Shown here: positions 6,080 to 32,714 of the stretch, piece after piece | How the letters are laid out: each line of letters starts with the position of its first letter | Numbering within the stretch: the first letter of the stretch is position 1 | Origin: Devosia litorisediminis | Lineage (GTDB): Bacteria > Pseudomonadota > Alphaproteobacteria > Rhizobiales > Devosiaceae | Assembly (NCBI RefSeq): GCF_018334155.1 | Contig: NZ_JAGXTP010000003.1 | Coordinates: 186,001 to 250,000 of the forward strand | Direction: 5' to 3' | DNA: 64,000 nucleotides | The notes under the pieces: generated by a model | The model's database searches: none | Told to the model about the DNA's origin: nothing | What the model saw: only the letters and a program-made list of their open reading frames with translations | Program-made: the position numbers and the translations under genes

Positions 6080-6083
6080 GAGA

Positions 6084-10801: not shown

Positions 10802-10802
10802 C

Positions 10803-12984: not shown

Positions 12985-13001
12985 ATGAAAACGAAAAAGA
13001 A

Positions 13002-14346: not shown

Positions 14347-14626
14347 ACCTCGGCCAGCGCGAGTTTTCTTCGACCGTGAATGACTAGATACAGATTTGTC
14401 GGCGGGCCTTTGAAACGTGTTTTGGGCAACGGCCCTCCAACCACATCCATGGGGTATTAGAGACAACGTGACAAAACCCCACTCTGAAAAATATAATTGC
14501 AGATCGCAGCCCACAAAAGGAGCCCAATTACCGGTGACCCATCACGCCATATCCGGCTTTCGGCAATGCCCATTTTTGGCGTCACGGCACCCCAGCAAAC
14601 GGCTGATGTGCGGCGAGTGTATAGCC

Positions 14627-14878: not shown

Positions 14879-15141
14879 CTAATGGCTGCAGCTGGGGGGG
14901 GTGAAACCGCCACATAGCAGACGACCCACTATCGGGTCGGCACAACGTCGAAAAAGCCAGTGCCCTATGTTCCCCATCTGCAATGTGAACGAGACTCCAT
15001 GGCCGCCTGTCCAACGGATCGGCAACAGCCATTTCTCGTATGTCCTGGACAGCTATGCGATAGCCGTCCTCCACCTGCTTGCCTATCGCCTTCGACCCGC
15101 ATCATAGTGCGCGCCATAGCTGCCAACTGATTTGAGTGAGC
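14879..15141. other. Intergenic region upstream of the type I restriction operon
   Basis: About 260 bases separate the small HGG-motif gene from hsdM. I see no gene or RNA here. The operon promoter should lie here, but no clear -35/-10 pair or strong ribosome binding site stands out. Confidence 0.3.
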
Positions 15142-16590: not shown

Positions 16591-17822
16591 AGCCGGGGTG
16601 GGAAATAAAGCAAATTGAGGAAATGGCCTTCATCCAAGAAGGGCCAGGAATCCGAAAGTACGAATATCAGGAGGATGGCTTCCCGATGATAAACGTCCGA
16701 TGCGTTCAGGATGGTTTTCTCGACATGTCGAGTGCCAGGGCGGCAAACACTGACCTTGCACTGGGCAAATGGAGGCACTTCCAGGTCGATGAGGGTGACA
16801 TCCTGTTCACTATCTCCGGCACTATCGGCCGTTGCGCGATCGTTACGAAGCATGACCTGCCCCTCCTGATGAACACCAGCGTAGTCCGTTTTCGCTCAAT
16901 CGATCCGAGGCTGGACACCAAATTTTTGTATCTGTTTTTGCAGTCCGACGGATTTCAATTGCCCCTCAAGCGGTTGTCGAGTGGAGCAGCAATACAAAAT
17001 GTCGGCCCCACCCACATAAAAATGCTCTCCATTCCCGTTCCCCCTCTCGAAGAACAACAGCGGATTGTTGCGATTCTGGACGAGGCCTTTGAGGGTCTGA
17101 CCCTCGCCCGCGCCAATGCCGAAGCCAATCTGCAGAACGCACGGGAATTGTTTGAGACATACGCAGCCGCACAGTTTGATGCCCTGACCAGTGATAGCTG
17201 CGTAGTGCTGTCTAGCGTCACAGGCGTCGCACTTCCGGACAAGGGAGCCATCCGCACCGGGCCATTTGGTAGTCAGTTGCTGCACAACGAATTCGTTGAT
17301 GAGGGCATTGCCGTACTCGGCATCGACAATGCGGTGGCCAATAAATTTCGCTGGGGGAAGAGCAGATTCATCACTGAAGAAAAATACGCGCAGCTGAAGC
17401 GTTATACGGTTAGACCGGGCGACGTGATAATAACGATCATGGGTACATGTGGCCGGTGTGCAGTTGTTCCTGACAACATACCACTCGCCATCAACACAAA
17501 GCACCTATGCTGTATTTCCCTTGACCGGACAAAGTGTCTGCCAGAATACCTGCATCATTACTTTCTGTTCAGTCCTGCGGCGCGGTCCTATCTATCTGCG
17601 CAGGCCTCAGGTTCTGTGATGGACGGTTTGAACATGGGTATCATCAAGGACATGCCGGTCCAATTACCCAGCATTGGTCGGCAAGAAACGATTATCGCAA
17701 ACGTCTCCAAACTGCAGAATGCAGCTGCAGAGCTCATTGATGACTATGAAACCAAGCTTCAAGGGCTTGGGGATCTCCGCCGATCCCTCTTGCAGAAGGC
17801 ATTCGCAGGCGAATTGACCTGA
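16587..17822 (+). CDS. hsdS: Type I restriction-modification specificity subunit
   Basis: This 411-residue specificity subunit has two target-recognition domains, one per half-site. The first is about residues 1-160, closed by the helical spacer IPVPPLEEQQRIVAILDEAF. The second is about 205-370, ending in the second helical region (LQGLGDLRRSLLQKAFAGEL). Repeated TRD-type segments are visible (GDILFTISGTIGRCAIV and GDVIITIMGTCGRCAVV). GTG start overlaps the hsdM stop (GTGA). The DNA target cannot be read from the sequence. Confidence 0.92.
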   Translation: MKPGWEIKQIEEMAFIQEGPGIRKYEYQEDGFPMINVRCVQDGFLDMSSARAANTDLALGKWRHFQVDEGDILFTISGTIGRCAIVTKHDLPLLMNTSVVRFRSIDPRLDTKFLYLFLQSDGFQLPLKRLSSGAAIQNVGPTHIKMLSIPVPPLEEQQRIVAILDEAFEGLTLARANAEANLQNARELFETYAAAQFDALTSDSCVVLSSVTGVALPDKGAIRTGPFGSQLLHNEFVDEGIAVLGIDNAVANKFRWGKSRFITEEKYAQLKRYTVRPGDVIITIMGTCGRCAVVPDNIPLAINTKHLCCISLDRTKCLPEYLHHYFLFSPAARSYLSAQASGSVMDGLNMGIIKDMPVQLPSIGRQETIIANVSKLQNAAAELIDDYETKLQGLGDLRRSLLQKAFAGELT

Positions 17823-17853
17823 GCCATAGTCAGCACTGATTGGAGAGTTTCTT

Positions 17854-18096
17854 TTGGCCGTATCGCAGCGCAAGCCGGGTGACATTAACCCGAATGACCA
17901 GATCCTGATTGCGCGCACTGATCGGCCCGGCACCGATTATCTGCAGTATGTCTGGGTCCTCGTCTGCGCGCGCCGCAATCCCGGTGGCGCGATCTGTGGC
18001 CATCGCTATGGCGCCAACGGCTCCGATTTCCACATCCGCAAATGCCCCTCCTGCCAACGCGGTGCGGCTGGGCTGGATATCGAGGGTCTATTGTGA
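17854..18096 (+). CDS. Small zinc-ribbon protein in the hsd operon
   Basis: This 80-residue protein starts at TTG 17854. It contains CARRNPGGAICGHRYGANG and RKCPSCQRGAAGL, a Cys pattern (CxxC at the C-terminal side) consistent with a zinc ribbon. It starts 31 bp after hsdS and its stop overlaps the start of the next gene (GTGA). My recollection is that similar small proteins recur in type I operons of alphaproteobacteria. The role is unknown; DNA binding or assembly with the OGG-fold partner is only a guess. Confidence 0.65.
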   Translation: MAVSQRKPGDINPNDQILIARTDRPGTDYLQYVWVLVCARRNPGGAICGHRYGANGSDFHIRKCPSCQRGAAGLDIEGLL

Positions 18097-18863
18097 CCGG
18101 TGCCGGACGCGGGGACCTTGCGAGCAATTTTGCCTCAGACCATCTTTCGCGCTTTGAGAAGTCACTGGCTGGTTTCCTCGATCTAGACAAACCAGGTGGC
18201 AAGCACGCACGGTCCTTCGCAACAGGAATTGCGCGAGCCCAATCTGACAGGCTGCCAGACGGTCAACTCAGTCGCAGCGATGTCCTCGGATTCAACGGAG
18301 ATCCAGATCTGGATACTCCCACCGTATGCGCTGCGATATTGGCTTGGGGCGGGATGCGGATGGACAATCGCAACCGGTTGTCTGCAGACCATGACTGGCT
18401 TTCTTTTGCGGACAATATTCGGAGAGGGGCGATCAGCCGTGCAGAAGCATTCCACCAGTTCCAGGATCTCAGGCGAGATAAGAGGCTCAAAGGCATGGGC
18501 CCGGCGTTCTTCACAAAGTTGATCTACTTCCTATCGCCGCGAGGAGGCGCTGCGCCGCCAGCTCATATATTGGATCAGTGGACAGGAAGTTCGGTGAACC
18601 TACTATCCGGCTCTGATGTCGTGCGGATGGACATCGTCACGACCTGCCTCTGGAAGCAAGACGGGAGCAGAACCATAGATACGGCCCACAATGTTTCGGA
18701 CCACAATACCGCTTTGCACTACGAGGCATTTTGCATCAAAATGGATGCTCTGGTCTCAATATTCAGCAGGTCAGTTGATGAGATTGACTGCGCACTCATG
18801 AGCGAAGGTTCTGATATCTCTTGGCGAGAGTACCTCAAGACTAGTCGTGTGCATCTGGCATGA
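18093..18863 (+). CDS. OGG-fold (8-oxoguanine glycosylase-like) protein in the hsd operon
   Basis: This protein of about 256 residues starts at a GTG overlapping the preceding stop. It resembles the family described as 8-oxoguanine DNA glycosylase OGG-fold proteins: AWGGMRMDNRNRL, an IRRGAISRAEAFHQF helix pair, a helix-hairpin-helix-like LKGMGPAFFTKLIYFL, then AHILDQWTGSSVNLL and YEAFCIKMDAL near the C-terminus. It is placed between hsdS and hsdR with 4-bp overlaps on both sides, so it is an integral operon member. It could recognise modified bases or be an accessory defence protein. The family call is from pattern memory and the role is inferred. Confidence 0.6.
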   Translation: MTGAGRGDLASNFASDHLSRFEKSLAGFLDLDKPGGKHARSFATGIARAQSDRLPDGQLSRSDVLGFNGDPDLDTPTVCAAILAWGGMRMDNRNRLSADHDWLSFADNIRRGAISRAEAFHQFQDLRRDKRLKGMGPAFFTKLIYFLSPRGGAAPPAHILDQWTGSSVNLLSGSDVVRMDIVTTCLWKQDGSRTIDTAHNVSDHNTALHYEAFCIKMDALVSIFSRSVDEIDCALMSEGSDISWREYLKTSRVHLA

Positions 18864-21178
18864 TGGAAGAAACTGAAGCCGACACACGCGCCGAACGGAT
18901 CGACCCGGTGCTGGCCGCTGCTGGCTGGGGCAAGGTTGAGGGCTCACGAGTCCGGCGAGAGGTGATTTGTCCCGGGCGCATTCAGACCGGTGGCAATCGC
19001 GGCAAGCCCCTGTCCTGCGACTATGTGTTGATCCACAAGGGCCACAAGCTGGCCGTACTGGAAGCCAAGAAAGCCGGCGTCAGCCACCGCAGTGGGGTCG
19101 GCCAGGCTAAGGACTATGCGCAGCGCCTCAAGGCCCGCTTTGCCTATGCGTCCAACGGGCTCAATTGGTACGGCATCGACATGGCGACCAGCAAGGAAGG
19201 CGACATCGCTTTGCCGTTCCCGACGCCGAGCGAATTGTGGGACCGCACCTTTGCCGACCACAATGCCTGGCGCGAGGCCTTCGGCGCGGTTGAATTCGAA
19301 ACCGATGGCGGCAAGTGGGAGCCGCGCTATTACCAGCACAATGCGATCACGGCTGTGCTGGACGCAATTTCCAGGCGTGACAGGCGCATCCTGCTGACCT
19401 TGGCGACAGGCACCGGCAAGACCTCTATCGCCTTCCAGATCGCCTGGAAGCTGTTCCAGGCCAAGTGGAACCTGACCAACGAGCCGACCCGCCGCCCGCG
19501 CGTCCTGTTTCTCGCCGATCGCAATATTCTGGACGATCAGGCCTACAACGCCTTCTCGGCCTTCCCCAACGATGCCATCACCCGCATCGACCCCGATACG
19601 ATCCGCAAGAACCACGGGAAGCCACCGAAAAACGCTAGCCTGTTCTTCACCATCTTCCAGACCTTCATGACCGGCGAAACCAAGCCGATCTATCTGCAAT
19701 ACCCGCCTGACTTCTTCGATTTCATCGTCATCGACGAATGCCATCGCGGCGGCGCCAAGGACGAAAGCGAATGGCGCAAGCTGCTCGAATATTTTGAGCC
19801 ATCAGTCCAGCTAGGAATGACAGCTACTCCCAAGCGCAAGAACAATGCCGATACCTATGCCTATTTTGGCGAGCCGGTTTACACCTACTCGCTGCGCGAA
19901 GGCATTGAAGACGGCTTCCTGACGCCCTTCAAGGTGCGCCAGATGGCCAGCACCATCGACGAATATGTCTATCACCCCGAAGACGAGGTGATATCCGGCG
20001 ACGTGGAAATCGGCGACAGCTTTGACGAGGGCGATTTCAACAATCGCATCATCATTGAAGACCGCGAACTGGCTCGCGTCCGCGAATTCATGAGCCAGAT
20101 CGACCAGCGCCAGAAGACCCTGGTGTTCTGCGCCACCCAGGAGCACGCCGCGCTGGTGCGCGACCTGATTAACCAGGTCAAGACCAGCTCCAATCCCGAT
20201 TATTGCCACCGCGTGACCGCTGAAGACGGCGAAATCGGCAATGCGCACCTTCGGGCGTTTCAGGACAACGACAAGACCATCCCGACCATCCTCACCACCT
20301 CGCAAAAGCTTTCCACGGGCGTTGACGCCCGCAACGTCCGCCATATCGTGCTGATGCGCCCGGTCCGCTCGATGATCGAGTTCAAGCAGATCATCGGCCG
20401 CGGCACCCGCACCTATGACGGCAAGGATCATTTCACGATCTGGGATTTCGTGCGGGCCCACGAAAACTTTGAAGATCCTGAATGGGACGGCGAACCACTG
20501 GATCCAGAGCCGCCGGTAAACCGCCCCGCCGTTGTCGAAGATGGTGACGGCCCCGAAATTGACGAAGAGGGGGATGAATACGACCCCGAACAGCCGGCGC
20601 AAAAGCTGGTCATCAAGCTGGCCGACGGCAAGGCACGGTCCATCCAATTCATCGCCACCACCACCTATTGGGGGCCAGACGGGAGGCCAATGTCAGCGCA
20701 GCAGTTTCTGGAAAGGCTGTTCGGCGACCTCAGCGGTCTGATCCTCGACGAAGACGCCCTGCGCGCTGAATGGAGCGATCCGGACCGTCGCGAAAAACTG
20801 ATCGCCGTGCTGGCCGACCGTGGCTATGACGGCGACAAGCTGAACGATATGCGCCAGCTTATTGACGCGCCCAATAGCGACCTGTTCGACGTGCTGGCCT
20901 ATATCCGCTTCACCATCCCCGCCAAGACCCGTGCGGAGCGCGCTGAGACCACCGCCAACGGCAATTTTGCCGCCAGCGACGGCGAGATGCACGAATTTCT
21001 CATCGGCGTCCTGCAGGCCTATGCCGCCCATGGCGAGAGTGAACTCTCCCTCTCCAAGCTCTCGTCCTTCCTGACAGCCCGCTACGGCACCCTCGCCGAC
21101 GCCAAGGCTAAGCTAGGAGACACCGCGGCGATCAAGGCTGCCTTCGTGGGCGTTCAGCGCGAGCTGTATCGCCAGTAG
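18860..21178 (+). CDS. hsdR: Type I restriction endonuclease/translocase subunit (EcoEI-like)
   Basis: This 772-residue motor-nuclease subunit has an N-terminal PD-(D/E)xK nuclease with D54 and E68-A-K70 (LAVLEAKK). The SF2 helicase has Walker A GTGKT (184-188), VIDECHRGG (motif II), GMTATPKR (motif III) and QIIGRGTRTY (motif VI). A C-terminal region follows (about 540-772) like that of EcoEI-type HsdR, including an acidic stretch. The length matches the short EcoEI group rather than the roughly 1000-residue type IA subunits. ATG overlaps the preceding stop. It should translocate and cut DNA unmethylated at the HsdS target. Confidence 0.93.
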   Translation: MMEETEADTRAERIDPVLAAAGWGKVEGSRVRREVICPGRIQTGGNRGKPLSCDYVLIHKGHKLAVLEAKKAGVSHRSGVGQAKDYAQRLKARFAYASNGLNWYGIDMATSKEGDIALPFPTPSELWDRTFADHNAWREAFGAVEFETDGGKWEPRYYQHNAITAVLDAISRRDRRILLTLATGTGKTSIAFQIAWKLFQAKWNLTNEPTRRPRVLFLADRNILDDQAYNAFSAFPNDAITRIDPDTIRKNHGKPPKNASLFFTIFQTFMTGETKPIYLQYPPDFFDFIVIDECHRGGAKDESEWRKLLEYFEPSVQLGMTATPKRKNNADTYAYFGEPVYTYSLREGIEDGFLTPFKVRQMASTIDEYVYHPEDEVISGDVEIGDSFDEGDFNNRIIIEDRELARVREFMSQIDQRQKTLVFCATQEHAALVRDLINQVKTSSNPDYCHRVTAEDGEIGNAHLRAFQDNDKTIPTILTTSQKLSTGVDARNVRHIVLMRPVRSMIEFKQIIGRGTRTYDGKDHFTIWDFVRAHENFEDPEWDGEPLDPEPPVNRPAVVEDGDGPEIDEEGDEYDPEQPAQKLVIKLADGKARSIQFIATTTYWGPDGRPMSAQQFLERLFGDLSGLILDEDALRAEWSDPDRREKLIAVLADRGYDGDKLNDMRQLIDAPNSDLFDVLAYIRFTIPAKTRAERAETTANGNFAASDGEMHEFLIGVLQAYAAHGESELSLSKLSSFLTARYGTLADAKAKLGDTAAIKAAFVGVQRELYRQ

Positions 21179-21260
21179 GGGTCCCAACATTCCCAGATGG
21201 ATGCAATTAGCACAATTGCCGGGAAAGCTGGTTAGGCATCATCCTCCTAGCGCAGGCCGC

Positions 21261-21461
21261 CTAGTTGTCGATGCCTTCAAGACGGGAAACGACGAGAGAC
21301 AGCTCCTCTTCAACGGTAATAACGTGAAGTCCGTTCGCATTCGCCGTCGTGACAATATCTGCGGTGCCTAAGACATTGCCGAGACGCACACAGACGACCT
21401 GCTCGGAATTGATGTACACCGCGTTTTCAGAGTCGACTTCAATAAATTCAATGAACGACAT
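21261..21461 (-). CDS. Small hypothetical protein downstream of the RT-exonuclease pair
   Basis: This 66-residue acidic protein (MSFIEFIEVDSENAVYINSE...) probably forms a compact beta-rich fold. Its ATG at 21461 has AGGA 7 nt upstream. It lies 63 bp downstream of the exonuclease gene on the same strand and so may be the third gene of the primase-RT operon. No family recognised. Confidence 0.5.
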   Translation of the reverse strand: MSFIEFIEVDSENAVYINSEQVVCVRLGNVLGTADIVTTANANGLHVITVEEELSLVVSRLEGIDN

Positions 21462-21524
21462 TTATAATCCTCTATTTGAACGAATTTTGGCGCAGCGAAA
21501 GTAGAGCGTGTAAAAATCTAACGC

Positions 21525-22424
21525 TTATCGAAGGCGCATAGAATAACGCTGAAAAGCTGTAATCTCGAACATAGGAAGCTGCACGGGCGATCGAAAGATC
21601 TCCGAACGAAGGAATTCGACCTCGGCGTCTACCCTGTCTGCAGTCAGATCCGTCCACCAAGCCCGAGGGCCAAGCTTATCATCTGAGTTCCATTTGTAGC
21701 CGCGATGTTTCAAAATATCCTTGCTCTCGAACGGCGCCGCTTCGGCGAAGATCCGCCACATCGGCTGGCGAGCTGATTTCAAGACCTTGCTAAGCACCCG
21801 TTCGCTGCTTTTTGGAAGCTTCATCGTCAACAGTGCGATGCCCGCCTCGCAATCATCGACCGCTCGGTGTGCATCGAAGAAGCATTGAAATCCGGACAAC
21901 AGGTCGGAAAGCCGCCGCCCTTCGACACCTTCCTGCTTCCAAGGTACGTCGAACATCGTGCAGGCCCAAGGCTTAGCCTCGAATATAGGTGAGATACGCT
22001 CAACGAAAGGCCGGTCGAATCCAGCATTGTGGGCAATAAGAATGTCCGCAGATGACACAAGTTTTTCGATCTCGGTAATATCGAGCTGGTGACCTTCCAC
22101 GAGCTCGTCCGTAAGCCCCGTGATAGCTGTTATTTCTGAAGGTATCGGCTTCGCCGGCTCATTGAACTGATGAAGAGATTGTCCAACCGAAACAATTCGG
22201 CCATCTACAGCATATTCGAACGGCACTATGGCAAGTTCGAGAATTTCACTAGTTTGAAAATCCAAACCTGTGGTCTCAACATCCAAAAACATGCCAGTCC
22301 GAACTCGGGAGCCGTCACTCGGCTCGATTCGATCACCAAGCCTTAGTCGTCGCAGCACCCTAAAATCGCCCGATGCATCAAGTCGGCGGGCAAGCTCCTC
22401 AAGATCGTCGTCGGCGTTTTTCAT
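21525..22424 (-). CDS. DEDDh 3'-5' exonuclease (DnaQ-like) of the primase-RT operon
   Basis: This protein of about 299 residues has a DnaQ-type exonuclease domain. ExoI is FLDVETTGLD (D48, E50), ExoII is HNAGFD (D137) and ExoIII is H186RAVDD with D191, so all four DEDD residues and the general-base His are present. The C-terminal extension contains HRGYKW and RAWWTDL, probably a small nucleic-acid-binding module. ATG 22424 is preferred (GGAG 7 nt upstream, 13 bp after the stop of the giant gene); a longer frame reaches 22463 and would overlap it. The tight linkage implies that it trims or removes DNA ends made or exposed by the primase-RT protein. Confidence 0.88.
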   Translation of the reverse strand: MKNADDDLEELARRLDASGDFRVLRRLRLGDRIEPSDGSRVRTGMFLDVETTGLDFQTSEILELAIVPFEYAVDGRIVSVGQSLHQFNEPAKPIPSEITAITGLTDELVEGHQLDITEIEKLVSSADILIAHNAGFDRPFVERISPIFEAKPWACTMFDVPWKQEGVEGRRLSDLLSGFQCFFDAHRAVDDCEAGIALLTMKLPKSSERVLSKVLKSARQPMWRIFAEAAPFESKDILKHRGYKWNSDDKLGPRAWWTDLTADRVDAEVEFLRSEIFRSPVQLPMFEITAFQRYSMRLR

Positions 22425-22437
22425 ATCTCGCTCCGCG

Positions 22438-25400
22438 TCAATCGATTGTCCGCGGCGGCTCATCCTGCATTGAGCGCGGAACGTTAAGCAATGACTTATC
22501 GCTGTTTAGCGGATCATCTCCGTCCAGGACCACTTCCGCGGCATATTTTTCGGGTAGCCATCGGTCGTCCACGTAGAGCCAGTCGACCAAGGCCGGTAGC
22601 GGGTTCATCGGTGGCATATCATAGAGTTCAGTCTTGAAAGAGTCGGTCCGCTTGCGAAGCCAACTTGGGTCGTCCGCGAAGTCTTCCAGTACACGGAGCG
22701 CCGCAAGTGTTTCCGCAATCGCGGCCTGATAGTCGGGCGGCAGATCCTCATCGGGGGATCCGACGTTAACTTTTGACCGCCAGACGGATTCTAGCTCCAA
22801 CGCCTTGGCGACCTTGATGCGGGCTTCCCCAAAAGTAAGTGCCTTTCCTTCGACTGTTCGAGTCCGTGGTTGACGCTGTTTGTTTGGATACGAGCCAGGA
22901 CCAGCGTGGCCCCCTTTCTCCGTGGCGAACAGAATAGGAAGGTGTGCAACAAGCCGCAGAGAGCGATGCTGATAATGCGGTCGGGGACGCTGATCGGTGG
23001 TTCTTAGCAGGTCCAGATCAGCAATAACCATTGCTGACTCAGTTTCTCCTAGCGGACCACTGTGCGAATCCCCGAGCTGGAATATACCCGGCGCTTTTGA
23101 TCCATACGGGGTTTTGATCCCTTCCGTTCGCTTCCACCCGTCAAGACCAATGAAACCGCTTTGGCCACAACTCGCGTGAGGAAGGACGGCATTGCAGAAT
23201 GCAGTTACAAGGCCAGCAGCCAGATACTGGTTCTGCCCGAAGATATGATAGTCGGCTGAGCGTGTCGTCATTGCGGGCAGGACAATAAGAGTCCGCTGGT
23301 GTTTTTCTCCTCTCACTAGCGCGCCGTCCGTGTCCCCGTCGACCTTCGCAGCGTTGCGAAACGCAGTCCAACGGGCAAACTCATAGATGTCTCTGCTGAT
23401 ATGAGAGAAGATGGTCTCGCCACCCTTACCCATACCGTATCGATCAGCGAGTTCCTTGGCTTCCTCAATGATACCGACAAAATTTGCACTGCTGGCGTGC
23501 GGGAACATTTCCGAGCAGACGAGCTCCAACGAGAACGTCCCAAGTGTGAACGCATCGTTTTCATCAACCAATAATGGAATCCATGGTTCTTTAAATGGTG
23601 GCCTGATCAATTCTCCAGCTGCGGCTGATGGGTAGCGTTTCGGTCGTGCGAAATGCTCAACCTTTATGAGTTGCTTCTCTACTATGGCGCGCAGGCAGGT
23701 CAGAACCGCCGTATGCGCGTCCCACCGGTTCATCAGTGTTGGCAGCGGTCCCGAACTACTGACGAAGGGGACTGCAGCCTTGGCGCTGAAATCCTGGTCA
23801 AGCTGCGTGCCACTGGGGACCCTAAACGTGCCGCACCACACAGTGATTTTCTGCGGCTGGGTTTTAAGCTGGCGTGCAAGCCAGTTGATGGTCTCCGGTC
23901 GCAAACTGTATTCCGGAAAAACAAGACCATCGACCTTTAAATCCGCGCAGGCTTTAAGAACTTCCCGAATTAGGGTCCGCCGGCGGTATTCAGAGGTTGA
24001 AAGGAACACACCACCGTCTTTGACCTTCGTCTGACCTGCAGGCTTGTCACCTTCTGGAGATACCAGACCTTCATACTGTCCGCCCTTATGTCCCGGGCTA
24101 TAGTAGCTGTCCACGACATCCCATTGCACTAGAGCAACCCGATGCGTACCGGGGTTCTTTGCAGAAGAACGTGCTTCCCAAGAGCTCAATCGCTTCTTGT
24201 CGATCAGCGCCAGCGCTTCATCCAGCACCGTCGAATTCGAAGCCGCTGACGAAACTGTTGCTTCTTCTGACAAGGTCTCAACGACGCTATCGGGCTTGGC
24301 TTGTTCTATGGAAACTTCAGCGGGCGGATCGGATTTCACGACCTGATCATCGTGGTTCTTAGTCGGTATCGAGACAATCTGGAACGACCGCCCGAATGCA
24401 GCTTCGCCCAGTTTGCGCGAAACGAGATGAAAGCCGAGCACCTGATCGCCGCGACGCGATATGGAATAAGGGAAACGCAGACGGTTCCCTGATGGATAAG
24501 TCTCCATGGCCGCGCCGCGCTCGCCGACCACATACGACACATCAATTTGCCAATCGGCAAGGCTTATGGAACTTCCGTCAGCCAGCCGCATGATTGGACG
24601 GCCACCCTGGCTGTCAGCGGTTCGAGGGGCAGACCACGATACTTCGTTGCTCACCTCTATTGCAGTTGCGTCGGTGAGCTGCCGAAGAAGCAGTGGTAAA
24701 TCGGCGGGACGTCGTTCAAGCAGTTGATCGAATACGTCCCATGGCCAATTTGGAGCATTTTCTGTCGTCGTCGAACTGCTCGCGAAATATCTTAGGAGGC
24801 CTTGGAGGGCGGCTTCTGCCTCAATCATTCCAGCATGTGTTTGCCATAGAGACGGCCGGCCAAAGTCGCTTCGCTGGCGCACAGGAACGACTTGAATCAG
24901 AATTGCGATTAGTACGACCCAACCTGCTGGCGTAATCTGATCGCGGACAAAATTGAGGCCTCCTCGCTTTCCAAGTACTACTTGGCAGAACGCGTGAACG
25001 ACCTTCGAAGTCTGCACTATCAGGCTAGGATCGAGGGTCGCAAACCTGTCATTGATCATAATCAAATCGAGGCCAACGGCGTCCGACACCCAGGCCAGAT
25101 CAAAGTCGGCGCCAATCAGACGTTCCAGCGAAGCCTCCGGTAAACTCGCTGCGATTTCAAAGGCCAGCGCTCGAAGATCAGCAATGGCCGCCAATGTTTC
25201 AGCACCAGCCTCAAGCGCGTTGAGCGGGGCCGCAGACTCGCCAGGAAGATTTCCATTCGCCTGCCCGATCGCCACTGACAGCGTCTGCCAGGCTGAAGCA
25301 CTGCGTCGGTAAGGAAGCGAAGGGGGGACAGTTATGTCCCAGTGCTTAGAAGCCTCGGGAAGCGCGCGGCCCACTCTTTTGGTCGCCCGAGCTAGAAGCT

Positions 25401-28400
25401 CTGCAGGGTTGCCGTTCGACTTAAGGTCGTGGAGCGCATTCACGCGCTCGCTCATGAACATTCCCTCGGAAACAGCCGCGACCAGATAAGATGCAGCCTG
25501 TGCCGCAGTGCTTGCTAGCTCAAAGTTCTCGAGCAGCGAGAGCGCACGGCGGATTCGTGTCGGAATTGGATTGCCAGGCGTACCCTCGCCCGGTCCCCAC
25601 TGGTCGGCTCCAGAAAGCCGCGGAAGTACGCGCGCAACAATTGCCTCTCGCCGATGAAATTCCTCATCAAGTGCGGTTGCGGCTTGGGCATCCATCCCGG
25701 CGTCATCATCTTGGGATGGCTCAGCGCGATTGCACGCGTCACGCACCGCCCACCCATAGCGCCAGAGATCAGCACCCTCAGCGTAGACGCTCCGCGCTTC
25801 CAGCGAGGGCCCCACACGTACGAAAGCATGGCCATCCACGCTCGACCTCAATGCCGGCCAAGAAATGAGCAGGACACTTGAGAAATCAATGACACCGTCT
25901 TCGATTTTGCCAAAGAACGAAAATGCCGTGGGCACGGGCACCCGCTCAGCGTCTAGATTAATCTGTTCATCGAAGCGGTTAAAACCTGCTCGATAAAGAC
26001 CTGCAATTTCTGAGGGCGACCACTTCCGGGTCTTTTCGACCAGCAACCTGCTTCCTGCTGGAAGCGTGGCCTCCTGCATAGCAATCCCAGGCACCAACTG
26101 CTCGCTCGAATCTCTCCATTTCACTCCCAGCGGCGATCCCTCCGCGGTACCGGCTGAAGCGAGCAGCAATCTACCATCTGGGCACCACAAGAGAATGCCG
26201 GAGGCCCTAAGGCCCGGGGGCGAGGGCAAGGGGATGGCGTCAGGTACGCCAGCAATCAACCGCGTCAAGCGTGGCCTGCGCAATGCGATCTCTGCGAACA
26301 CTGAGTACGTGAGATTTACGAGCGTTGCTGCAGCATCGAATTCGACATCAGTTGGAAGTGTGGTTCCACCCTCAGTATCAATACTCGGTGCCCAGATGCT
26401 CATGATTGTCTGGGATACGCTAACGACCTTGTTTGGTTCCTCCAAGTCGGAAAAGGAGAAAACGCTAGGGCCCTCTTCGGCACCATATGCTTGCGCGCGT
26501 TGGAGTTCGACTAGCGTCTGGTTGAGCCGTGAGAAAACGGCCTTCGAAGACTGTCCGCTCGCAACGATAAGGCTAGGCAATGGGCGCGCAAATGCGGCAT
26601 CATGCTTTAGTAAAGCGTGTAGCAAACCCTCCGGAAGAGCCTCGCCGCTGCTCGTGCCTGGGAGAAGGAATTTGTGTAGGAAGCTGAATTGGAAATCATT
26701 GTTCCTGACTCCCAAATTCTCCGAGGCAAGGCATGCGATGATCCCAATCTGGCAGCGCGTGTCGAAGCGCGAAAGCAGCTCACCTTTGTCACTCCCAAGG
26801 AGCAGTGTTTGGAGTGAAGTAAACGGGTCATCTAGGACAGACGCTGAAAGAGCCTTAAGGTTTCGGTCGATCCGGTCGCACAACTCTTGACCGAATGTTC
26901 CGGGCAGAACCGCAAATCGCAACGCCCTATCGAGCCCCTCCATTGCCGCCATCGCGATATCAAGGAGATCACTGTCAGAAATTAGGTGTAACGCTCGAGG
27001 TTCGGCGTCGGTCAAGAACCTTATGAAGCTCGCTGCTAGATCATCGCCTGACGGTTCAGCTAGCTTGTCGGCAGCAAAACACCATAGTCGACGATATGCA
27101 TTAGCCCGGTCGTTGAACCGGATATCAGCAGCGCCTAGCGCTATCCCAATCTTGGCCAATCCACCTTCGGCATTTGCTGGGTTATCGAGTTCGCGGTCAA
27201 AAAGCAGCCCAAGCGCGGTGCGGCGATCGATTTCGCCAGCGTCAGCAAGTGGGTCCATGGCCTCTGTGGTCGGCAAGTCTGCAAGAGGACCAGAAAAGCC
27301 GAAGCCAGCGCGATTATCAGTAATCCAGCCGCGGGCTTCAGCGCGTGACATTGGCGGTGGAGTCACGTTCTTGCGATTGAGCGACAAACCCTTATGGGAA
27401 ATGAATGTCTCGATTTTGCGGCGGAGTTGAGCAGCTGTTTCAAAATCTCTGCAGATGATGACTACGTCGTCTACATATCGGGCGTAGGCAGCCGAGCATC
27501 TGTCACTAGTGCCGACTTCCTCGGGCAAAGTATCTTGTTCATTTAGCTTAGAAACTTCGGCGCCCATCATGTCGTCAAGATCGAACAGCGAGATATTTGC
27601 TAGGTACGCTGAAAGATCGGGTCCTTGCGGAATCCCACTCTTCGCGTCACCTGAAACTACCTTGCCAGAAAGCGGATCAAAGTAACGAAGTCCGAAACTA
27701 TGCTGTAGCAGAAAACGGGTGAAAATCTCTGACCTTCCCGCTGCATCATCTGTCTCCGAAGGAGCAAGCAAAGGCGCAAAAGATCCGATATCGCCGTCGA
27801 CGAAATTTAGGCTGTGTAACGCACGTTCGAGAGGCTGTGTAAGCGCGTCGGTAAAGACATCTGATCGGATGTGGTCGTAAAATCCGGTGATATCGAGACG
27901 CACGATCTGCATCTCGTCATGGCGAAAATGCTTGATCCGATCATCAAGACAATCAACGAAAGCTCGCCAGCATTCGAAATATGGACGGAATATCCCTTCA
28001 CGCCGCGGCGGAGAAAGCCCGTTCACTATTGCCATGTCGATCTGATAAGCAAAGCTCAAAGCGGGTTGTTTGAATCCACGGCCGGTCTTGTAGATGCCCC
28101 CATCAAGTCCACCGTCGCGCGAGTACCGAATTGCCGGGATACTGTCCGCAAAACTAGGACAATCGTCGCGATCTCTCAGTAGCTCAACAAGTGCATATTG
28201 CAGCAGAATGGCATCGTGTGCCACGGGTCCCGACTTAAGCCGGTATTTTCCGCCTCCCTTAGGCACATGCCGTGCAAGTAGCGGGCTCGAAGGACCATCG
28301 ATGGCTGCCAATCTTTCACTATGAATATGAAAAAGTGGAGACGCAGCGATCGCAAGCCGTTCCCATGCATCGTCATCGAGAGGGTATTCTCGTCGCGATG

Positions 28401-29931
28401 TTGACGAGCGTCCGAGCGTCAGTGCGGTCAGGAGGTCTGACCTATCATCTGCCGGGTCGCGCAAAGGCTGAAGAACACGCTGCACCTCAGCAGGACTTGC
28501 TGGCGCGCCACCATAACTACGCACCAAGGCCGCGAACTGAGCCAAGCCGAGATTCTGGTCATCTATTGGCAAGGGCGCGATAATGCGCGACCAATCTGCA
28601 TGGTGAAGAGAGATCGCGACGCTTCTGGCGATAGACGCTAGCCGAAGGCGATTGATCGATGACCAATCCAGGCGTGAAGGATCCGTTCCCAGTCTATAAG
28701 CTGCTAGAAACTCTAGGGGGCCGGCGCTCGCAGACCTGATCCGATCCTGAGCATCCTCGAAAGAAAGGCCGCGCAAGAAAGTGTCCGGATCAACTTTTGT
28801 CGTGTCGGTCGCTGACGAGGCAATGATAGTCAGTTCGAATGGATGACCGTGCTGAAGCAGTCCTAAAAGCTGCAACGTGGCATCGTATGCCCCGCGTTTG
28901 CCTGCATCGTCCCAGTCGAAAAAAATGTGGATTCTGAGCTCGCCGTCGAACTCTCCGACCAATTCTTGAATTCGAGCAATTCGTTCGATCTGGCCGGGTG
29001 TGATCTGAGCGCCGAGCACGCCTAGCGCATGAAATCCCAACTGCTCAAGACGGAGAACATCAAAGATGCCCTCGACAAGGTAGATGTCGATGGCACCGCC
29101 ACGGCCGTTCCTGCCCAACTCCTCGACAGCCTTGATCAGTCGACTTTGACCATAGAGGGAGGTGCTACGAGGAAAATTGTAGGAGTAGAGATACTTCGGC
29201 TTTTGCTGGTCAAGTGCGCGTGCGGCGAAGCCGACGGTCTCGTCGTGCGGACCGTCGATGGGAAAAACGATGCGATTGCCGCCAAAAAAACCACGCAATT
29301 TGGGGCCGTAGAGGTCAGCGACCGGCTCGGCGGCGTCGTCTCGGCGAAGCACACCAGCTTCAACAAGCTGCTCTTCAATTGTCCGATCAGCTCTCGCCCG
29401 CTCGATCAAACCCGCAAGGCTTGTATTACCCGCGCCTGCACCACGAAGAAAGGTCGGATCAAATCCTCGCTCTTTCGAAAAGGCGACGAATTTTTCGTCG
29501 GTCTTAGACAACTCGCTAAGACGATGCGTGAGAACGCTAGCTCCAGTAGAACGGTCGACCACAGGGCGCCGCCTTGAATCGAGCTCGACCCCCTCAATCG
29601 CAGCGAGCCGTTGGATCGCCTCCCAAAACGTAACTTTCTCATAATTCTGAATGAGGGCGACCGCATCGCCGTGGGCGCCGCACACGAAGCAATGATAATG
29701 ATCGCGTTCAGTTCGCCCCCCACCACCACGATACAGGTTAAGTGATGGATCCTTGTCATCATGAAATGGGCAAAGGGCGCGCCGCGGCTGGCGTATCCGC
29801 TTGTCTACATGCAGTCCAAGCCGCTCGGCGACCGTGACTATATTGGCCTGTTCAACAAGCTTTGCGACGTCTGTAGATCCGTTGCTAGGTCTGCGAGCCA
29901 AATGATCCCCCTTTTGAGATCCATTTATCAA
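22438..29931 (-). CDS. Giant DnaG-type primase / reverse transcriptase / nitrilase fusion protein
   Basis: The frame spans 2497 codons in one uninterrupted reading frame. Residues 54-84 are a CHC2 zinc finger (C54, H57, C81, C84). Residues about 215-360 match the DnaG catalytic core: NRIVFPI, PKYLYS, LYG, then Toprim with E287 (VEGIFD) and D339-W-D341-D342. Residues about 610-880 are a reverse transcriptase: motif A around D680 (VRLDITGFYDHI), motif B SGIPQGPDLS (765-774), motif C YVDD (819-822). About 1000 residues of unassigned sequence follow. Residues about 1928-2360 are a nitrilase-like domain with E2007 (FPEYSL), K2090 and C2139 (LVCSEMF). RT-nitrilase fusions are known in type 1 defence RTs; the complete primase core is the unusual part. 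The start may be TTG 29931 or, better placed after AAGGGGG, TTG 29901. Confidence 0.9.
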   Translation of the reverse strand: MINGSQKGDHLARRPSNGSTDVAKLVEQANIVTVAERLGLHVDKRIRQPRRALCPFHDDKDPSLNLYRGGGGRTERDHYHCFVCGAHGDAVALIQNYEKVTFWEAIQRLAAIEGVELDSRRRPVVDRSTGASVLTHRLSELSKTDEKFVAFSKERGFDPTFLRGAGAGNTSLAGLIERARADRTIEEQLVEAGVLRRDDAAEPVADLYGPKLRGFFGGNRIVFPIDGPHDETVGFAARALDQQKPKYLYSYNFPRSTSLYGQSRLIKAVEELGRNGRGGAIDIYLVEGIFDVLRLEQLGFHALGVLGAQITPGQIERIARIQELVGEFDGELRIHIFFDWDDAGKRGAYDATLQLLGLLQHGHPFELTIIASSATDTTKVDPDTFLRGLSFEDAQDRIRSASAGPLEFLAAYRLGTDPSRLDWSSINRLRLASIARSVAISLHHADWSRIIAPLPIDDQNLGLAQFAALVRSYGGAPASPAEVQRVLQPLRDPADDRSDLLTALTLGRSSTSRREYPLDDDAWERLAIAASPLFHIHSERLAAIDGPSSPLLARHVPKGGGKYRLKSGPVAHDAILLQYALVELLRDRDDCPSFADSIPAIRYSRDGGLDGGIYKTGRGFKQPALSFAYQIDMAIVNGLSPPRREGIFRPYFECWRAFVDCLDDRIKHFRHDEMQIVRLDITGFYDHIRSDVFTDALTQPLERALHSLNFVDGDIGSFAPLLAPSETDDAAGRSEIFTRFLLQHSFGLRYFDPLSGKVVSGDAKSGIPQGPDLSAYLANISLFDLDDMMGAEVSKLNEQDTLPEEVGTSDRCSAAYARYVDDVVIICRDFETAAQLRRKIETFISHKGLSLNRKNVTPPPMSRAEARGWITDNRAGFGFSGPLADLPTTEAMDPLADAGEIDRRTALGLLFDRELDNPANAEGGLAKIGIALGAADIRFNDRANAYRRLWCFAADKLAEPSGDDLAASFIRFLTDAEPRALHLISDSDLLDIAMAAMEGLDRALRFAVLPGTFGQELCDRIDRNLKALSASVLDDPFTSLQTLLLGSDKGELLSRFDTRCQIGIIACLASENLGVRNNDFQFSFLHKFLLPGTSSGEALPEGLLHALLKHDAAFARPLPSLIVASGQSSKAVFSRLNQTLVELQRAQAYGAEEGPSVFSFSDLEEPNKVVSVSQTIMSIWAPSIDTEGGTTLPTDVEFDAAATLVNLTYSVFAEIALRRPRLTRLIAGVPDAIPLPSPPGLRASGILLWCPDGRLLLASAGTAEGSPLGVKWRDSSEQLVPGIAMQEATLPAGSRLLVEKTRKWSPSEIAGLYRAGFNRFDEQINLDAERVPVPTAFSFFGKIEDGVIDFSSVLLISWPALRSSVDGHAFVRVGPSLEARSVYAEGADLWRYGWAVRDACNRAEPSQDDDAGMDAQAATALDEEFHRREAIVARVLPRLSGADQWGPGEGTPGNPIPTRIRRALSLLENFELASTAAQAASYLVAAVSEGMFMSERVNALHDLKSNGNPAELLARATKRVGRALPEASKHWDITVPPSLPYRRSASAWQTLSVAIGQANGNLPGESAAPLNALEAGAETLAAIADLRALAFEIAASLPEASLERLIGADFDLAWVSDAVGLDLIMINDRFATLDPSLIVQTSKVVHAFCQVVLGKRGGLNFVRDQITPAGWVVLIAILIQVVPVRQRSDFGRPSLWQTHAGMIEAEAALQGLLRYFASSSTTTENAPNWPWDVFDQLLERRPADLPLLLRQLTDATAIEVSNEVSWSAPRTADSQGGRPIMRLADGSSISLADWQIDVSYVVGERGAAMETYPSGNRLRFPYSISRRGDQVLGFHLVSRKLGEAAFGRSFQIVSIPTKNHDDQVVKSDPPAEVSIEQAKPDSVVETLSEEATVSSAASNSTVLDEALALIDKKRLSSWEARSSAKNPGTHRVALVQWDVVDSYYSPGHKGGQYEGLVSPEGDKPAGQTKVKDGGVFLSTSEYRRRTLIREVLKACADLKVDGLVFPEYSLRPETINWLARQLKTQPQKITVWCGTFRVPSGTQLDQDFSAKAAVPFVSSSGPLPTLMNRWDAHTAVLTCLRAIVEKQLIKVEHFARPKRYPSAAAGELIRPPFKEPWIPLLVDENDAFTLGTFSLELVCSEMFPHASSANFVGIIEEAKELADRYGMGKGGETIFSHISRDIYEFARWTAFRNAAKVDGDTDGALVRGEKHQRTLIVLPAMTTRSADYHIFGQNQYLAAGLVTAFCNAVLPHASCGQSGFIGLDGWKRTEGIKTPYGSKAPGIFQLGDSHSGPLGETESAMVIADLDLLRTTDQRPRPHYQHRSLRLVAHLPILFATEKGGHAGPGSYPNKQRQPRTRTVEGKALTFGEARIKVAKALELESVWRSKVNVGSPDEDLPPDYQAAIAETLAALRVLEDFADDPSWLRKRTDSFKTELYDMPPMNPLPALVDWLYVDDRWLPEKYAAEVVLDGDDPLNSDKSLLNVPRSMQDEPPRTID

Positions 29932-30400
29932 CTCGAACCCCAGTCACTTTGCTATCATGCGCTCCGTTGAATCGTAAATCCTGAAGCAATGCAGGACTTT
30001 GGTTGGTCGCTCTTGAGTCGGGAAATGCAGCTTCATGGAGGCAGCTTCTCAGGCGGAGTGCGCGGGGCACGAAGTCGGTACATTGCTCTTGATTAGTCAG
30101 CGGCGCATCTCGAGCATGCAGACTTAGAACTTAGGCATGCTCGCAGACTGCCTTAGATTGCTCCCTATCGGGCTTTGAGCGCGATAGGGGCGACGCGCTG
30201 AATCCTAGCCCGCGCGGCCACTTTTTGCTGGTGACCGCATCGCGCTAGTTCGGTTTTGCAAGGTAACAGGGGATCCGCAGCCACGAGATCTATTATTGGG
30301 CATGCCATGAGCGGGTCCGGCGCAAGTGCACACAAAGGTGCACACGAACGCTCATTTCACCGAACCGATTCTGCAATATCAAACAGTTACGACAGTTCGA
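29932..30400. other. Gene-free right end of the island
   Basis: These 469 bases lie between the giant gene and the tRNA. They hold the presumed promoter of the minus-strand giant gene and the tandem GTGCACAC pair at 30324-30345. Open frames here are short and lack ribosome binding sites. No other gene or RNA is evident. Confidence 0.5.
30324..30345 (+). repeat. Tandem GTGCACAC repeat at the right island end
   Basis: AAGTGCACAC (30324-30333) is followed directly by AAAGGTGCACAC (30334-30345), so GTGCACAC recurs with a 12-nt period, the same period as at 10779-10801 and on the same strand. It lies 56 bp from the right attachment repeat. It is a candidate integrase arm site or accessory-factor site. 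Confidence 0.5.
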
Positions 30401-30414
30401 TGGCGGAGAGAGAG
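30401..30414. repeat. Right attachment-site direct repeat, 3' end of tRNA-Ser
   Basis: TGGCGGAGAGAGAG is the reverse complement of the final 14 nt of tRNA-Ser including CCA. It is identical to 10637-10650. The tRNA remains intact on this side. Confidence 0.8.
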
Positions 30415-30490
30415 GGATTCGAACCCCCGATGGAGTTGCCCCCATGCCGCATTTCGAGTGCGGTGCATTCGACCACTCTGCCATCTCTCC
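30401..30490 (-). tRNA. tRNA-Ser (anticodon CGA)
   Basis: On the minus strand, 90 nt fold into a class II tRNA. The acceptor GGAGAGA pairs with TCTCTCC, followed by discriminator G and an encoded CCA. The anticodon loop CTCGAAA carries CGA (complement of 30454-30456). A long variable arm (about GCAUGGGGGCAACUCCAUC) and the TTCGAATCC T-loop identify serine. It reads UCG codons. Its 3' end served as the integration site of the island. Confidence 0.95.
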
Positions 30491-30710
30491 GCAAGATCGA
30501 TGCTACCCCTTGTGGGGGCGCGTGTGGTCAACACGGGCGGGCTTATGGCATAGCAGCCATCGGGCCGCAACACTTCTTGTAAGCTTTCATTGCGCTTTGG
30601 CCGCCATTGGCCGACGATCACCTCGACCTCACGTTTCCGTGCTTGAGCAAACCATGCCGTCTGTCCTTGCGTTCAAGGAACGCAAGATTTGCTGATAATG
30701 GGAGAAACCA

Positions 30711-31484
30711 ATGGTTAGACGTCGTGAAATGGTTGCCGGAATGGCGACACTGTCCCTGCTGTCTCTGGGCGGCGGATTTGCAACTACAGCCCTGGCACAG
30801 GAGGCCACATTGGACGGCGACACGATTCCGACCGCACAGGGCGACATCACCGTCCACCCTGTTGACCATGCCAGCCTGCTGCTCGGCTATGGCGATCAGA
30901 CCATCTACATCGACCCTGTTGGCGGCGCCGAGCGCTATGCCGGCCTGCCAGCCGCCACCGCCATCCTGATCACCCACGGCCATGGCGACCATTTTGATGT
31001 GCCCACCCTTGAGGCGATTGCCGGGGACGCACCGATCATCACCAATCAGGACGTGTTCGACAAGCTGCCCGAGGCCCTCAGAGCCCAGGCTACCGCCATG
31101 GCCAATGGCGATGATGGTGACATCAATGGCATCGCGCTGAGCGCCGTGCCGGCGCACAACACTACCGAAGGCCGCATGCGCTATCATCCCGTCGGTGTCG
31201 GCAATGGTTATCTGCTGACCCTGGGCGACAAGGTGGTCTATGTGGCCGGCGATACCGAACCGACTCCCGAAATGCTCGCCATGACCGGGATCGCCGTGGC
31301 TTTCCTGCCCATGAACCTGCCCTATACAATGACACCTGAGCAGGCAGCAGAAGCCATCAACACCTTCAAGCCCGCCATTGTTTATCCCTATCACTATGGC
31401 GAGAGTGATCTGAGCGTGCTCGAAACCGCCATTGGGGCCGATACCGAACTGCGTCTGCGCAACTGGTATCCCAACGGCGGCTAG
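30711..31484 (+). CDS. Exported MBL-fold metallo-hydrolase (UlaG-like)
   Basis: This 257-residue protein has a signal peptide (VRRREMVAGMATLSLLSL, cleavage near ALA-QE at about residue 30). The twin basic start could suit Tat or Sec export. The metallo-beta-lactamase fold is shown by H89-x-H91-x-D93-H94 (ITHGHGDHFD), a later VPAHNT His, VAGDTE, and YPYHYGE near the C-terminus. This matches UlaG/YtnP-like hydrolases, whose substrates vary. It is the first chromosomal gene right of the tRNA and stands apart from the ribosomal genes downstream. Confidence 0.87.
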   Translation: MVRRREMVAGMATLSLLSLGGGFATTALAQEATLDGDTIPTAQGDITVHPVDHASLLLGYGDQTIYIDPVGGAERYAGLPAATAILITHGHGDHFDVPTLEAIAGDAPIITNQDVFDKLPEALRAQATAMANGDDGDINGIALSAVPAHNTTEGRMRYHPVGVGNGYLLTLGDKVVYVAGDTEPTPEMLAMTGIAVAFLPMNLPYTMTPEQAAEAINTFKPAIVYPYHYGESDLSVLETAIGADTELRLRNWYPNGG

Positions 31485-31498
31485 ACAGGCTCGCACGC

Positions 31499-31527
31499 TT
31501 GACTCTTGGGGCATTTGCCCTGATAAG
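31499..31527 (+). promoter_or_regulatory. Candidate sigma-70 promoter for rplU-rpmA
   Basis: TTGACT at 31499-31504 and GATAAG at 31522-31527 are separated by 17 bp, a near-consensus arrangement. It lies about 180 bp before rplU, leaving a leader with a hairpin next to the start codon. Confidence 0.5.
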
Positions 31528-31680
31528 CGCCCTCGGAATTGCGCGCAGGCTGGTCTTGCGCGCTTCCTTTGTTTGAAAACGCTGTTCGAGGTTGCCCCGC
31601 TGGTTTGATCGCCAGCAGCATTCACGAAGACCGCAGGATCAGGGCTTGCCCTGCGGCGCCACAGGACGCGACACAATGGG

Positions 31681-31703
31681 ACCGGGCGTTTAACGCTCCC
31701 GGT
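31681..31703 (+). promoter_or_regulatory. Leader hairpin just before the rplU start codon
   Basis: ACCGGGCG pairs with CG-CT-CCCGGT (2-nt bulge, TTTAA loop), ending 6 nt before the rplU ATG, where no Shine-Dalgarno sequence is visible. It could control translation of L21, possibly by autoregulation. That role is inferred from position alone. Confidence 0.35.
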
Positions 31704-31709
31704 TATGCT

Positions 31710-32432
31710 ATGACTTTTGCCGTGATCAAAACCGGTGGCAAGCAGTACAAGGTTGCCGCCAACGACGTTCTCAAGATTGAAAAGCTCGATGCCGAAGCCG
31801 GCACGATCGTCACCTTCGACCAGGTGCTGATGGTTGGCGACGAAGTCGGCGCGCCGCTCATCGAAGGCGCCACTGTCGCTGCTGAGCTGCTCGAGACTCG
31901 CAAGCAGAAGACGGTCATCATTTTCAAGAAGAACCGTCGCCACAATTATCGTCGTCGCAACGGCCACCGCCAGTTGCTCTCGACCGTGCGCATCACCGAA
32001 ATCCTGACCGGCGGCGCCAAGCCAACGATCAAGGCTGCCGGCGTTGCGGCCAAGACTGACGCAGTCAGCGAAGCCAAGCCTGCCAAGGCCAAGACCGCTG
32101 CCAAGGCACCGGCCGCTGACGCCAAGGCTGCTGCACCAAAGAAGGCTGCCGCCAAGGCGGACGCCGATTTCAACGACGACATCAAGCTCATTGGTGGCGT
32201 TGGCCCCGCCCTGGAAAAGAAGCTGAACGCCGCTGGCGTGACCAGCCTGACCCAGATCGCTGCCTGGACGGCTGACGACGTCGTCAAGTTTGACGACCTG
32301 CTCAGCTTCAAGGGCCGCATCGAGCGCGACGAGTGGATTACCCAGGCCCAGGATCTGGTGGCCGGCAAGCCCCCTCGCTCCAAGGTTGACCAGGACGCTG
32401 CGGCCGACAAGGCCGAAGACAAGACGAAGTAA
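31710..32432 (+). CDS. rplU: 50S ribosomal protein L21 with C-terminal helix-hairpin-helix extension
   Basis: Residues 1-103 are a standard L21 ([32 protein letters not shown]), which binds 23S rRNA in the large subunit. An Ala/Lys/Pro-rich linker (about 104-150) follows, then a domain with [20 protein letters not shown] and [14 protein letters not shown], a helix-hairpin-helix-type fold. The total is about 240 residues against about 103 for E. coli L21. Extended L21 proteins of this type occur in Hyphomicrobiales. The ATG at 31710 is chosen because L21 similarity begins exactly there. Confidence 0.95.
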
Positions 32433-32447
32433 GGATCGACAAGCACC

Positions 32448-32714
<267 letters not shown>

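Follow-up and report, generated by a model that had tools for sequence, protein, structure and literature searches.

The subject of this analysis is a very large gene in a 64,000-nucleotide stretch of the Devosia litorisediminis genome (contig NZ_JAGXTP010000003.1, positions 186,001 to 250,000; hereafter the window, to which all coordinates refer), together with the small exonuclease gene that adjoins it. The large gene encodes a DnaG-like primase, a reverse transcriptase (RT), and a nitrilase-fold domain in a single chain, and profile matches along its length make it almost certain that the product is a UG29 defense-associated reverse transcriptase (DRT). The combination of primase, RT, and nitrilase is not new, having already been catalogued as UG29 in the 2023 PADLOC-DB; what is new here is a UG29 member with a clade-specific partner exonuclease.

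A three-enzyme protein encoded in one frame

The UG29 gene and the parts of its product are the following.

22438 to 29931, minus strand: UG29 gene, encoding DnaG-like primase, RT, helical/beta middle region, and nitrilase (open reading frame (ORF), PADLOC RT_UG29 match, homologues)
29575 to 29871, minus strand: CHC2 zinc-binding domain, residues 21-119, with C54, H57, C81, and C84 (Pfam PF01807, 1.6e-17)
29149 to 29505, minus strand: N-terminal part of the DnaG catalytic core, residues 143-261 (Pfam PF08275, 2.7e-8)
28873 to 29085, minus strand: Toprim part of the primase core, residues 283-353, with E287, D291, D339, and D341 (Pfam PF13662, 5.3e-6)
27217 to 28446, minus strand: RT domain, residues ~496-905, with D680, GIPQGP at 766-771, and YVDD at 819-822 (PADLOC RT-only match, AlphaFold2 model against solved RTs)
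26242 to 27174, minus strand: helical region after the RT, residues ~920-1230 (AlphaFold2 model, Foldseek)
24382 to 26241, minus strand: middle region of mixed helix and strand, residues ~1231-1850 (structure models)
22966 to 24171, minus strand: nitrilase-fold domain, residues 1921-2322, with E2007, K2098, E2107, and C2139 (fold match)

The frame is open over 2497 codons with no break and holds the primase, RT, and nitrilase domains, as a preliminary description of the locus had stated; that description was right except for the start codon and a single residue. A GGGGGA motif stands ahead of an in-frame TTG at 29901, and a protein begun there has 2487 amino acids; the database copy of the protein has 2487 residues, and this TTG, rather than the first codon listed, is probably the real start. 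The concern that an assembly artifact had joined separate genes is removed by the 31 full-length loci elsewhere that carry the same fusion.

Identification of the protein as a UG29 member comes from the PADLOC-DB model RT_UG29 (PDLC03767, 2280 positions), which aligns with residues 19-2462 from model position 3 to 2269 at 1878 bits, the next-best PADLOC RT model on the whole protein being that of UG10 (DRT7) at 62 bits. With the RT part alone, RT_UG29 scores 557 bits and the next group 68 bits, and the group that comes second differs from one UG29 member to another. The four relatives scanned in the same way (L013, L018, L038, and L039) score 1483-2534 bits with RT_UG29, in matches that take in almost the entire protein. 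Identity as a group II intron RT (46 bits where 300 are required) or as a retron RT (23 bits where 235 are required) was rejected, in agreement with the preliminary description. Its further statement that the architecture was not a known one does not hold: RT_UG29 covers the whole fusion, and PADLOC-DB also holds a separate RTasDnaG-like DRT component. The RT_UG29 group goes back to a survey of UG/Abi RTs reported by Mestre et al. in 2022; a literature search that misses most subscription journals and the founding survey found no functional paper on UG29.

Conservation across the UG29 family

A protein search returned 62 proteins, the window's own among them, leaving 61 other homologues; 52 of the 62 were combined with P0001 in an alignment (A1). 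When genome contigs were scanned with an alignment as the query, 39 further loci with UG29 were found, whereas a single UG29 protein as the query gave no relatives. These 39 loci span at least five phyla and include Pseudomonadota (alpha, beta, and gamma), delta-proteobacterial/Myxococcota bins, Verrucomicrobiota, Planctomycetota, and Bacillota. Conservation was assessed in 32 full-length proteins, comprising 31 loci with one ORF of >2300 aa and the window; loci with an ORF of <2300 aa, whether by contig end, splitting, or shortening, were omitted (L014, L017, L021, L026, L028, L031, L033, and L042). The identity of this set to the window protein is 22-77%, and the order primase-RT-nitrilase is unchanged in all 31 relatives. 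Among viral contigs there were four weak matches, to the RT part only; none of 50,697 phage records carries 80% or more of UG29, and among the phage matches listed (20 of 141 records) only the primase part is matched.

Pfam matches, PADLOC, fold comparison, and the 32-protein alignment together bear out the fusion of an RT to a DnaG-type primase and a nitrilase, all three with their active-site residues kept. In the primase part, the zinc ligands C54, H57, C81, and C84 are invariant (32/32), as are the acids E287, D291, D339, D341, and D381. The last of these belongs to a DPD motif at residues 381-383, after the Toprim part, whose D383 is D in 26 of the 32 proteins and N in the other six. The roles of these six acids we take to be catalytic. 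The N terminus aligns with DnaG, as had been proposed, both by its Pfam matches (CHC2, DNAG_N, and Toprim) and by the bacterial DnaG model TIGR01391, which covers residues 22-411 at 145.4 bits and whose equivalog cut-off of 283.6 is not reached. As the Pfam primase matches are of the Zn_ribbon_DnaG/DNAG_N/Toprim kind and not of the AEP type, the primase is, by profile, DnaG-type rather than PrimPol-type.

In the RT part, D680, G766, Q769, and YVDD are identical in 32/32. The preliminary description had named Pfam profiles for each of the domains; the CHC2 zinc domain and Toprim are indeed matched, but the RT falls just below the Pfam cut-off and CN_hydrolase gives no match in the window protein (E up to 0.1) or in any of the 32 full-length proteins (E up to 0.05). 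In structure prediction, the RT region matches solved RTs and the C-terminal part, residues 1921-2322, matches solved nitrilases. The nitrilase domain is invisible to Pfam and PDB sequence searches, and it is fold comparison that reveals it; Foldseek alone gives amidases for this part at E 2.4e-3 and none at 0.001 or below. An E-K-E-C tetrad of E2007, K2098, E2107, and C2139 is invariant in 32/32. Of the triad first proposed, E2007-K2090-C2139, the glutamate and the cysteine stand, but K2090 is lysine in only 3/32 and the correct lysine is K2098. The catalytic roles of the four residues are our assignment, made from motifs and not from superposition.

Several members depart from the single long frame. 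In Pseudoalteromonas gelatinilytica (L033:9983-17382), UG29 is made up of a 1182-aa ORF and a 1284-aa ORF that overlap at ATGA, the split falling in the helical segment that follows the RT (residues ~1164-1198 of the window protein). In Aureimonas phyllosphaerae (L017:813-8549), two in-frame stops occur with no frameshift, at frame residues 418 and 1753, the first in a poorly conserved stretch between primase and RT (window ~444-491) and the second in the middle region (~1730-1738); this interrupted frame may represent fission or decay. In a UG29-like ORF of 931 aa (L042:4357-7152), the match to the window protein leaps from about residue 653 to residue 2176, and the ORF lacks the RT, the middle region, and the nitrilase residues E2007, K2098, and C2139.

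The partner exonuclease

Two further features of the window belong to the UG29 locus.

21525 to 22463, minus strand: DEDDh 3'-5' exonuclease of 312 aa, whose gene has 26 bp in common with the 3' end of UG29 (Pfam RNase_T, 7.4e-15)
29932 to 29984, minus strand: ~53 bp, the sole upstream DNA that the closest relatives have in conserved form; 83 bp when counted from the probable start (blastn against L005 and L007, 75-76% identity)

The exonuclease is a member of NF006615/PRK09182 (369.5 bits, 207 required), a family whose name says only 3'-5' exonuclease. With neighbors linked by BLAST (E 1e-4, half of the query covered), a procedure that a diverged exonuclease would escape, its cluster was found in 9 of 40 loci (the 39 and the window), always adjoining UG29 on the same strand; it lies downstream at -50 to +43 bp in eight of these and upstream at 86 bp in the ninth (L010). 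The nine loci include six named genera besides the host of the window, and the catalytic (DEDDh) motifs are kept in all nine. In the RT tree, which came from a quick search and has some long branches, the nine form one side of a branch with SH-aLRT of 100, corresponding to a single change; L015, which stands beside this clade, is without the gene. The exonuclease was not found among the genes called in the flanks of the remaining 23 full-length loci, 20 of which have at least 1.3 kb of downstream DNA and three of which (L020, L027, and L030) have <0.7 kb on the contig. The best plasmid relative, from Sphingomonas aerolata and examined after the clade pattern was seen, carries UG29 at 52% identity up to the origin of the record and then an annotated 3'-5' exonuclease at 208-1098.

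The DNA that the window shares with L005 and L007 runs from ~53 bp before the UG29 frame to within ~10 bp of the exonuclease stop, and because it spans just these two genes, UG29 and the exonuclease behave as one cassette. Since only ~53 bp upstream are conserved with these closest relatives, no long flanking noncoding RNA is apparent at the locus, which argues against a component of that kind; no Rfam match at gathering score was found except the tRNA described below, and there may be a short or distant RNA. A conserved cis ncRNA would be expected of the class 2 DRTs, which are ncRNA-templated.

The exonuclease family occurs in 15 of 289 genomes of the host's class. The genome of the window holds a single match, by which descent from a housekeeping copy by paralogy is ruled out. 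In the surroundings of the other 14 (2.9-13 kb), 13 show no UG29, and one genome (G283, L079:2270-3803) has an apparently intact exonuclease beside a 204-aa remnant of the UG29 C terminus; the ORF caller missed the exonuclease itself in three of the 14 regions (L074-L076), and small pieces of UG29 could also escape it. In L073 (from G175, 3639-7949), an exonuclease of the same family directly follows genes that by eye resemble SIR2 and HerA, and the exonuclease may be common to several defense systems.

Other genes follow UG29 in other members. A gene of ~300 aa that overlaps UG29 downstream is mutually homologous in L033 (17369-18286) and L040 (17748-18647) and has no Pfam or NCBIfam match; because these two loci share a different overlapping gene, other UG29 clades may have different partners. 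In L010 (15237-21376), the genes after UG29 encode a PD-(D/E)XK protein and a UvrD-type helicase, the helicase being matched best in PADLOC by RTasHel; the pair may be housekeeping genes of AddAB-like type or may be a partner of the DRT.

Genomic setting

The UG29 gene lies ~470 bp from a tRNA gene upstream of it, among the following features.

10637 to 10650, plus strand: TGGCGGAGAGAGAG, one copy of the direct repeat, 44 bp ahead of the integrase gene and probably one end of the island (alignment)
10695 to 11975, plus strand: tyrosine integrase of the island (Pfam Phage_integrase, Arm-DNA-bind_3)
15136 to 16590, plus strand: HsdM, type I methyltransferase (Pfam N6_Mtase, HsdM_N)
16587 to 17822, plus strand: HsdS, specificity subunit (Pfam Methylase_S)
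18042 to 18863, plus strand: OGG-like 8-oxoguanine glycosylase between HsdS and HsdR (Pfam PF21790, 1.5e-17)
18860 to 21178, plus strand: HsdR, EcoAI type (NF046051, 781 bits, 550 required)
30401 to 30414, plus strand: TGGCGGAGAGAGAG, the other copy of the direct repeat, at the tRNA gene's 3' end and probably the other end of the island (alignment)
30401 to 30490, minus strand: tRNA-Ser (CGA), probable integration site (ARAGORN, Rfam)

The 14-base 3' end of the tRNA, read on the plus strand, has one further copy within 6001-29000, at 10637. Taken by itself, a match of 14 bases is not a strong argument; because the repeat copies sit beside the integrase and at the tRNA end, however, the best reading of 10637-30414 is an integrated island of 19.8 kb with genes for the integrase, HsdM, HsdS, the OGG-like protein, HsdR, the exonuclease, and UG29. 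The OGG-like gene, which overlaps hsdR by 4 bp within the run of type I restriction-modification (R-M) genes, is unusual cargo. Beyond the tRNA, plus-strand ORFs at 30711-32432 resemble by eye a metallo-hydrolase and ribosomal protein L21, which would make that side of the island core genome. A 612-aa ORF at 30618-32456 on the minus strand was considered as a UG29 partner and rejected, having no family match and being separated from UG29 by the tRNA and the probable island end.

Defense genes also lie near relatives, among them HsdR (L027), GmrSD (L029), Avs4 (L038), RdrB-like (L036), and MzaE/AbiU-like (L015) proteins. Half of eight large neighbor proteins from eight loci match PADLOC defense families (L010, L015, L036, and L038), and ten neighbors picked by eye and compared with Pfam include the HsdR and GmrSD just named, four of the ten giving no match; these counts are a description without a control set, from which no enrichment is claimed. 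A copy of UG29 on a Polaromonas plasmid is near a NACHT protein and an integrase. With type I R-M genes in the island and defense genes near several relatives, the setting of UG29 fits defense, in keeping with the anti-phage role that the preliminary description thought probable.

Comparison with known systems

Among characterized systems, DRT1 shares with UG29 an RT and a C-terminal nitrilase in one protein, a combination that UG29 thus has in common with the DRT1-like class 3 UG/Abi RTs. When profiles of the UG29 parts are compared with DRT1 by hhalign, the RT gives 97.8%, the nitrilase 61% (E 8e-5), and the primase, as a negative control, 0.5%; the middle region has no DRT1 counterpart by hhalign. 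DRT1 differs in having 1229 aa and no reported primase, UG29 being twice as long, and in having a separate PADLOC model, Drt1a, which scores just 41.6 bits on the UG29 protein. The available text of the DRT1 report describes template-free, protein-primed DNA that activates and then locks the nitrilase in filaments, and mentions no primase (PMC13275509).

To our knowledge, no nitrilase is associated with DRT7. Like UG29, DRT7/UG10 has an RT fused to a second priming polymerase, but this is reported to be an AEP-type primase (PMC8934634), in contrast to the DnaG/Toprim core with CHC2 zinc of UG29. UG10 itself was sought in 299 genomes and gave no match at 1e-30. The RTasDnaG-like component of PADLOC (PDLC03800) is DnaG-like, is filed as an RT-associated DRT component, and matches UG29 residues 5-354 at 151 bits; it differs in being a separate protein with a model of 550 positions. 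Bacterial DnaG differs in that, among its Pfam matches, UG29 has no DnaB-binding domain and carries an RT instead, and in the equivalog cut-off that UG29 does not attain. Even RT_UG29, although it matches the window protein over its whole length, is a model of a single protein without the exonuclease linked to it in this clade.

A possible mechanism and its alternatives

What has been established is anatomy, and each functional step proposed below comes from precedents set beside it. Tentatively, the RT would begin DNA synthesis on its own polypeptide and would need no RNA template encoded in cis, in the way of DRT1 and AbiK. On the single-stranded product, a complementary strand would be primed by the DnaG domain and extended by the RT to give double-stranded or hybrid DNA, as has been described for DRT3 and DRT7, which each use two polymerases. 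Depending on its state, this product would assemble and gate the nitrilase, which would attack an essential amide- or amine-bearing metabolite so that growth stops. The exonuclease would trim 3' ends and so keep the product from reaching the level at which the response is triggered, as long as no phage blocks the trimming or feeds the synthesis; it may in this way be the safety catch of UG29. We regard this whole sequence of protein-primed RT, DnaG second strand, nitrilase gating, and exonuclease restraint as quite possible. More doubtful is the general statement that UG29 is a three-enzyme immune protein in which RT and DnaG build double-stranded DNA or an RNA-DNA hybrid without a cis RNA, thereby switching the nitrilase, with one clade having acquired a guard exonuclease.

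The precedents come from recent reports. AbiK is described as protein-primed, DRT3 as using two RTs to make complementary strands and as being restrained by RecBCD, and DRT9 as being restrained by ExoI (PMC13174585), while a preprint reports protein-primed, duplex-like DNA for DRT7, an RT-primase fusion (PMC13213688). In the reading of the exonuclease as a guard, the clade would encode in cis a version of the roles played by host ExoI for DRT9 and RecBCD for DRT3.

Structural results bear on an Abi-like reading in both directions. In its favor, the top Foldseek rows for the RT and helical region are UG15, DRT4, DRT9, and AbiK, and on these models the helical region is a possible counterpart of the Abi/UG RT helical region. 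The alignments to UG15, DRT4, DRT9, AbiK, and Abi-P2 extend over ~570-715 columns and past the RT, but at a root-mean-square deviation of 12-18 Å, AbiK being aligned between model residues 23 and 673. Fold results also count among the evidence against the Abi-like reading. DRT1 is not among the 50 Foldseek rows shown for the UG29 RT models and may lie below them.

In the main rival account, it is DnaG that supplies the starting primer, as the preliminary description had suggested, and it does so on phage DNA: the primase would lay short RNA on phage single-stranded DNA, the RT would extend it on the phage template, and the copy would signal to the nitrilase. The invariance of the CHC2 ligands and, D383 apart, of the Toprim acids is as expected of a primase that reads a template, and the identical order of primase, RT, and nitrilase in the 31 relatives is also in keeping with this route. 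Several defense RTs, on the other hand, begin DNA without a nucleic-acid primer, and DRT1 is an RT-nitrilase able to work by protein priming, as far as the available texts describe (PMC13174585, PMC13275509). We consider phage-template priming rather unlikely.

A different division of labor, in which the primase serves as a sensor or as the source of a small RNA or oligonucleotide bound by the nitrilase module, with no product common to RT and primase, appears improbable. That the modules can be encoded apart is seen in L033, split after the RT, and in L017, broken between primase and RT and in the middle region, although L017 has possibly just decayed; fusion in one chain with a conserved order suggests coupled chemistry.

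For the exonuclease, the alternative to a guard is a passenger that lies beside UG29 by chance in one clade. Its occurrence in 14 other genomes of the class, with UG29 seen just once, as a remnant, in the 2.9-13 kb around it, and the fact that it is not seen in other UG29 clades would be expected of a passenger. Its constant strand across six named genera besides the host's, its overlap or gap of at most 43 bp in all but L010, its intact catalytic motifs, and the end of the DNA shared with L005 and L007 so near its stop are not, and mere chance is a distinctly unlikely account.

Very unlikely is a role in the replication or transposition of a mobile element rather than in defense: UG29 does lie in an integrase-carrying segment at a tRNA gene, a gene cluster including integrases (three of its genes were scanned) is near several relatives, and there are two plasmid copies, but no replication gene was seen as a conserved neighbor in the neighbor clusters, the flanks hold varied defense genes, near-complete UG29 is missing from the phage records, and we know of no role for nitrilases in element replication.

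Implications

With the architecture already catalogued, what is surprising is that a partner exonuclease is conserved and that every active site is strictly preserved. Defense RTs are known to synthesize unusual DNA, which in two cases is kept in check by nucleases of the host (PMC13174585). The two-gene cassette of UG29 and its exonuclease makes testable both the role of a replication-type primase in an immune RT and that of a guard nuclease within the system itself.
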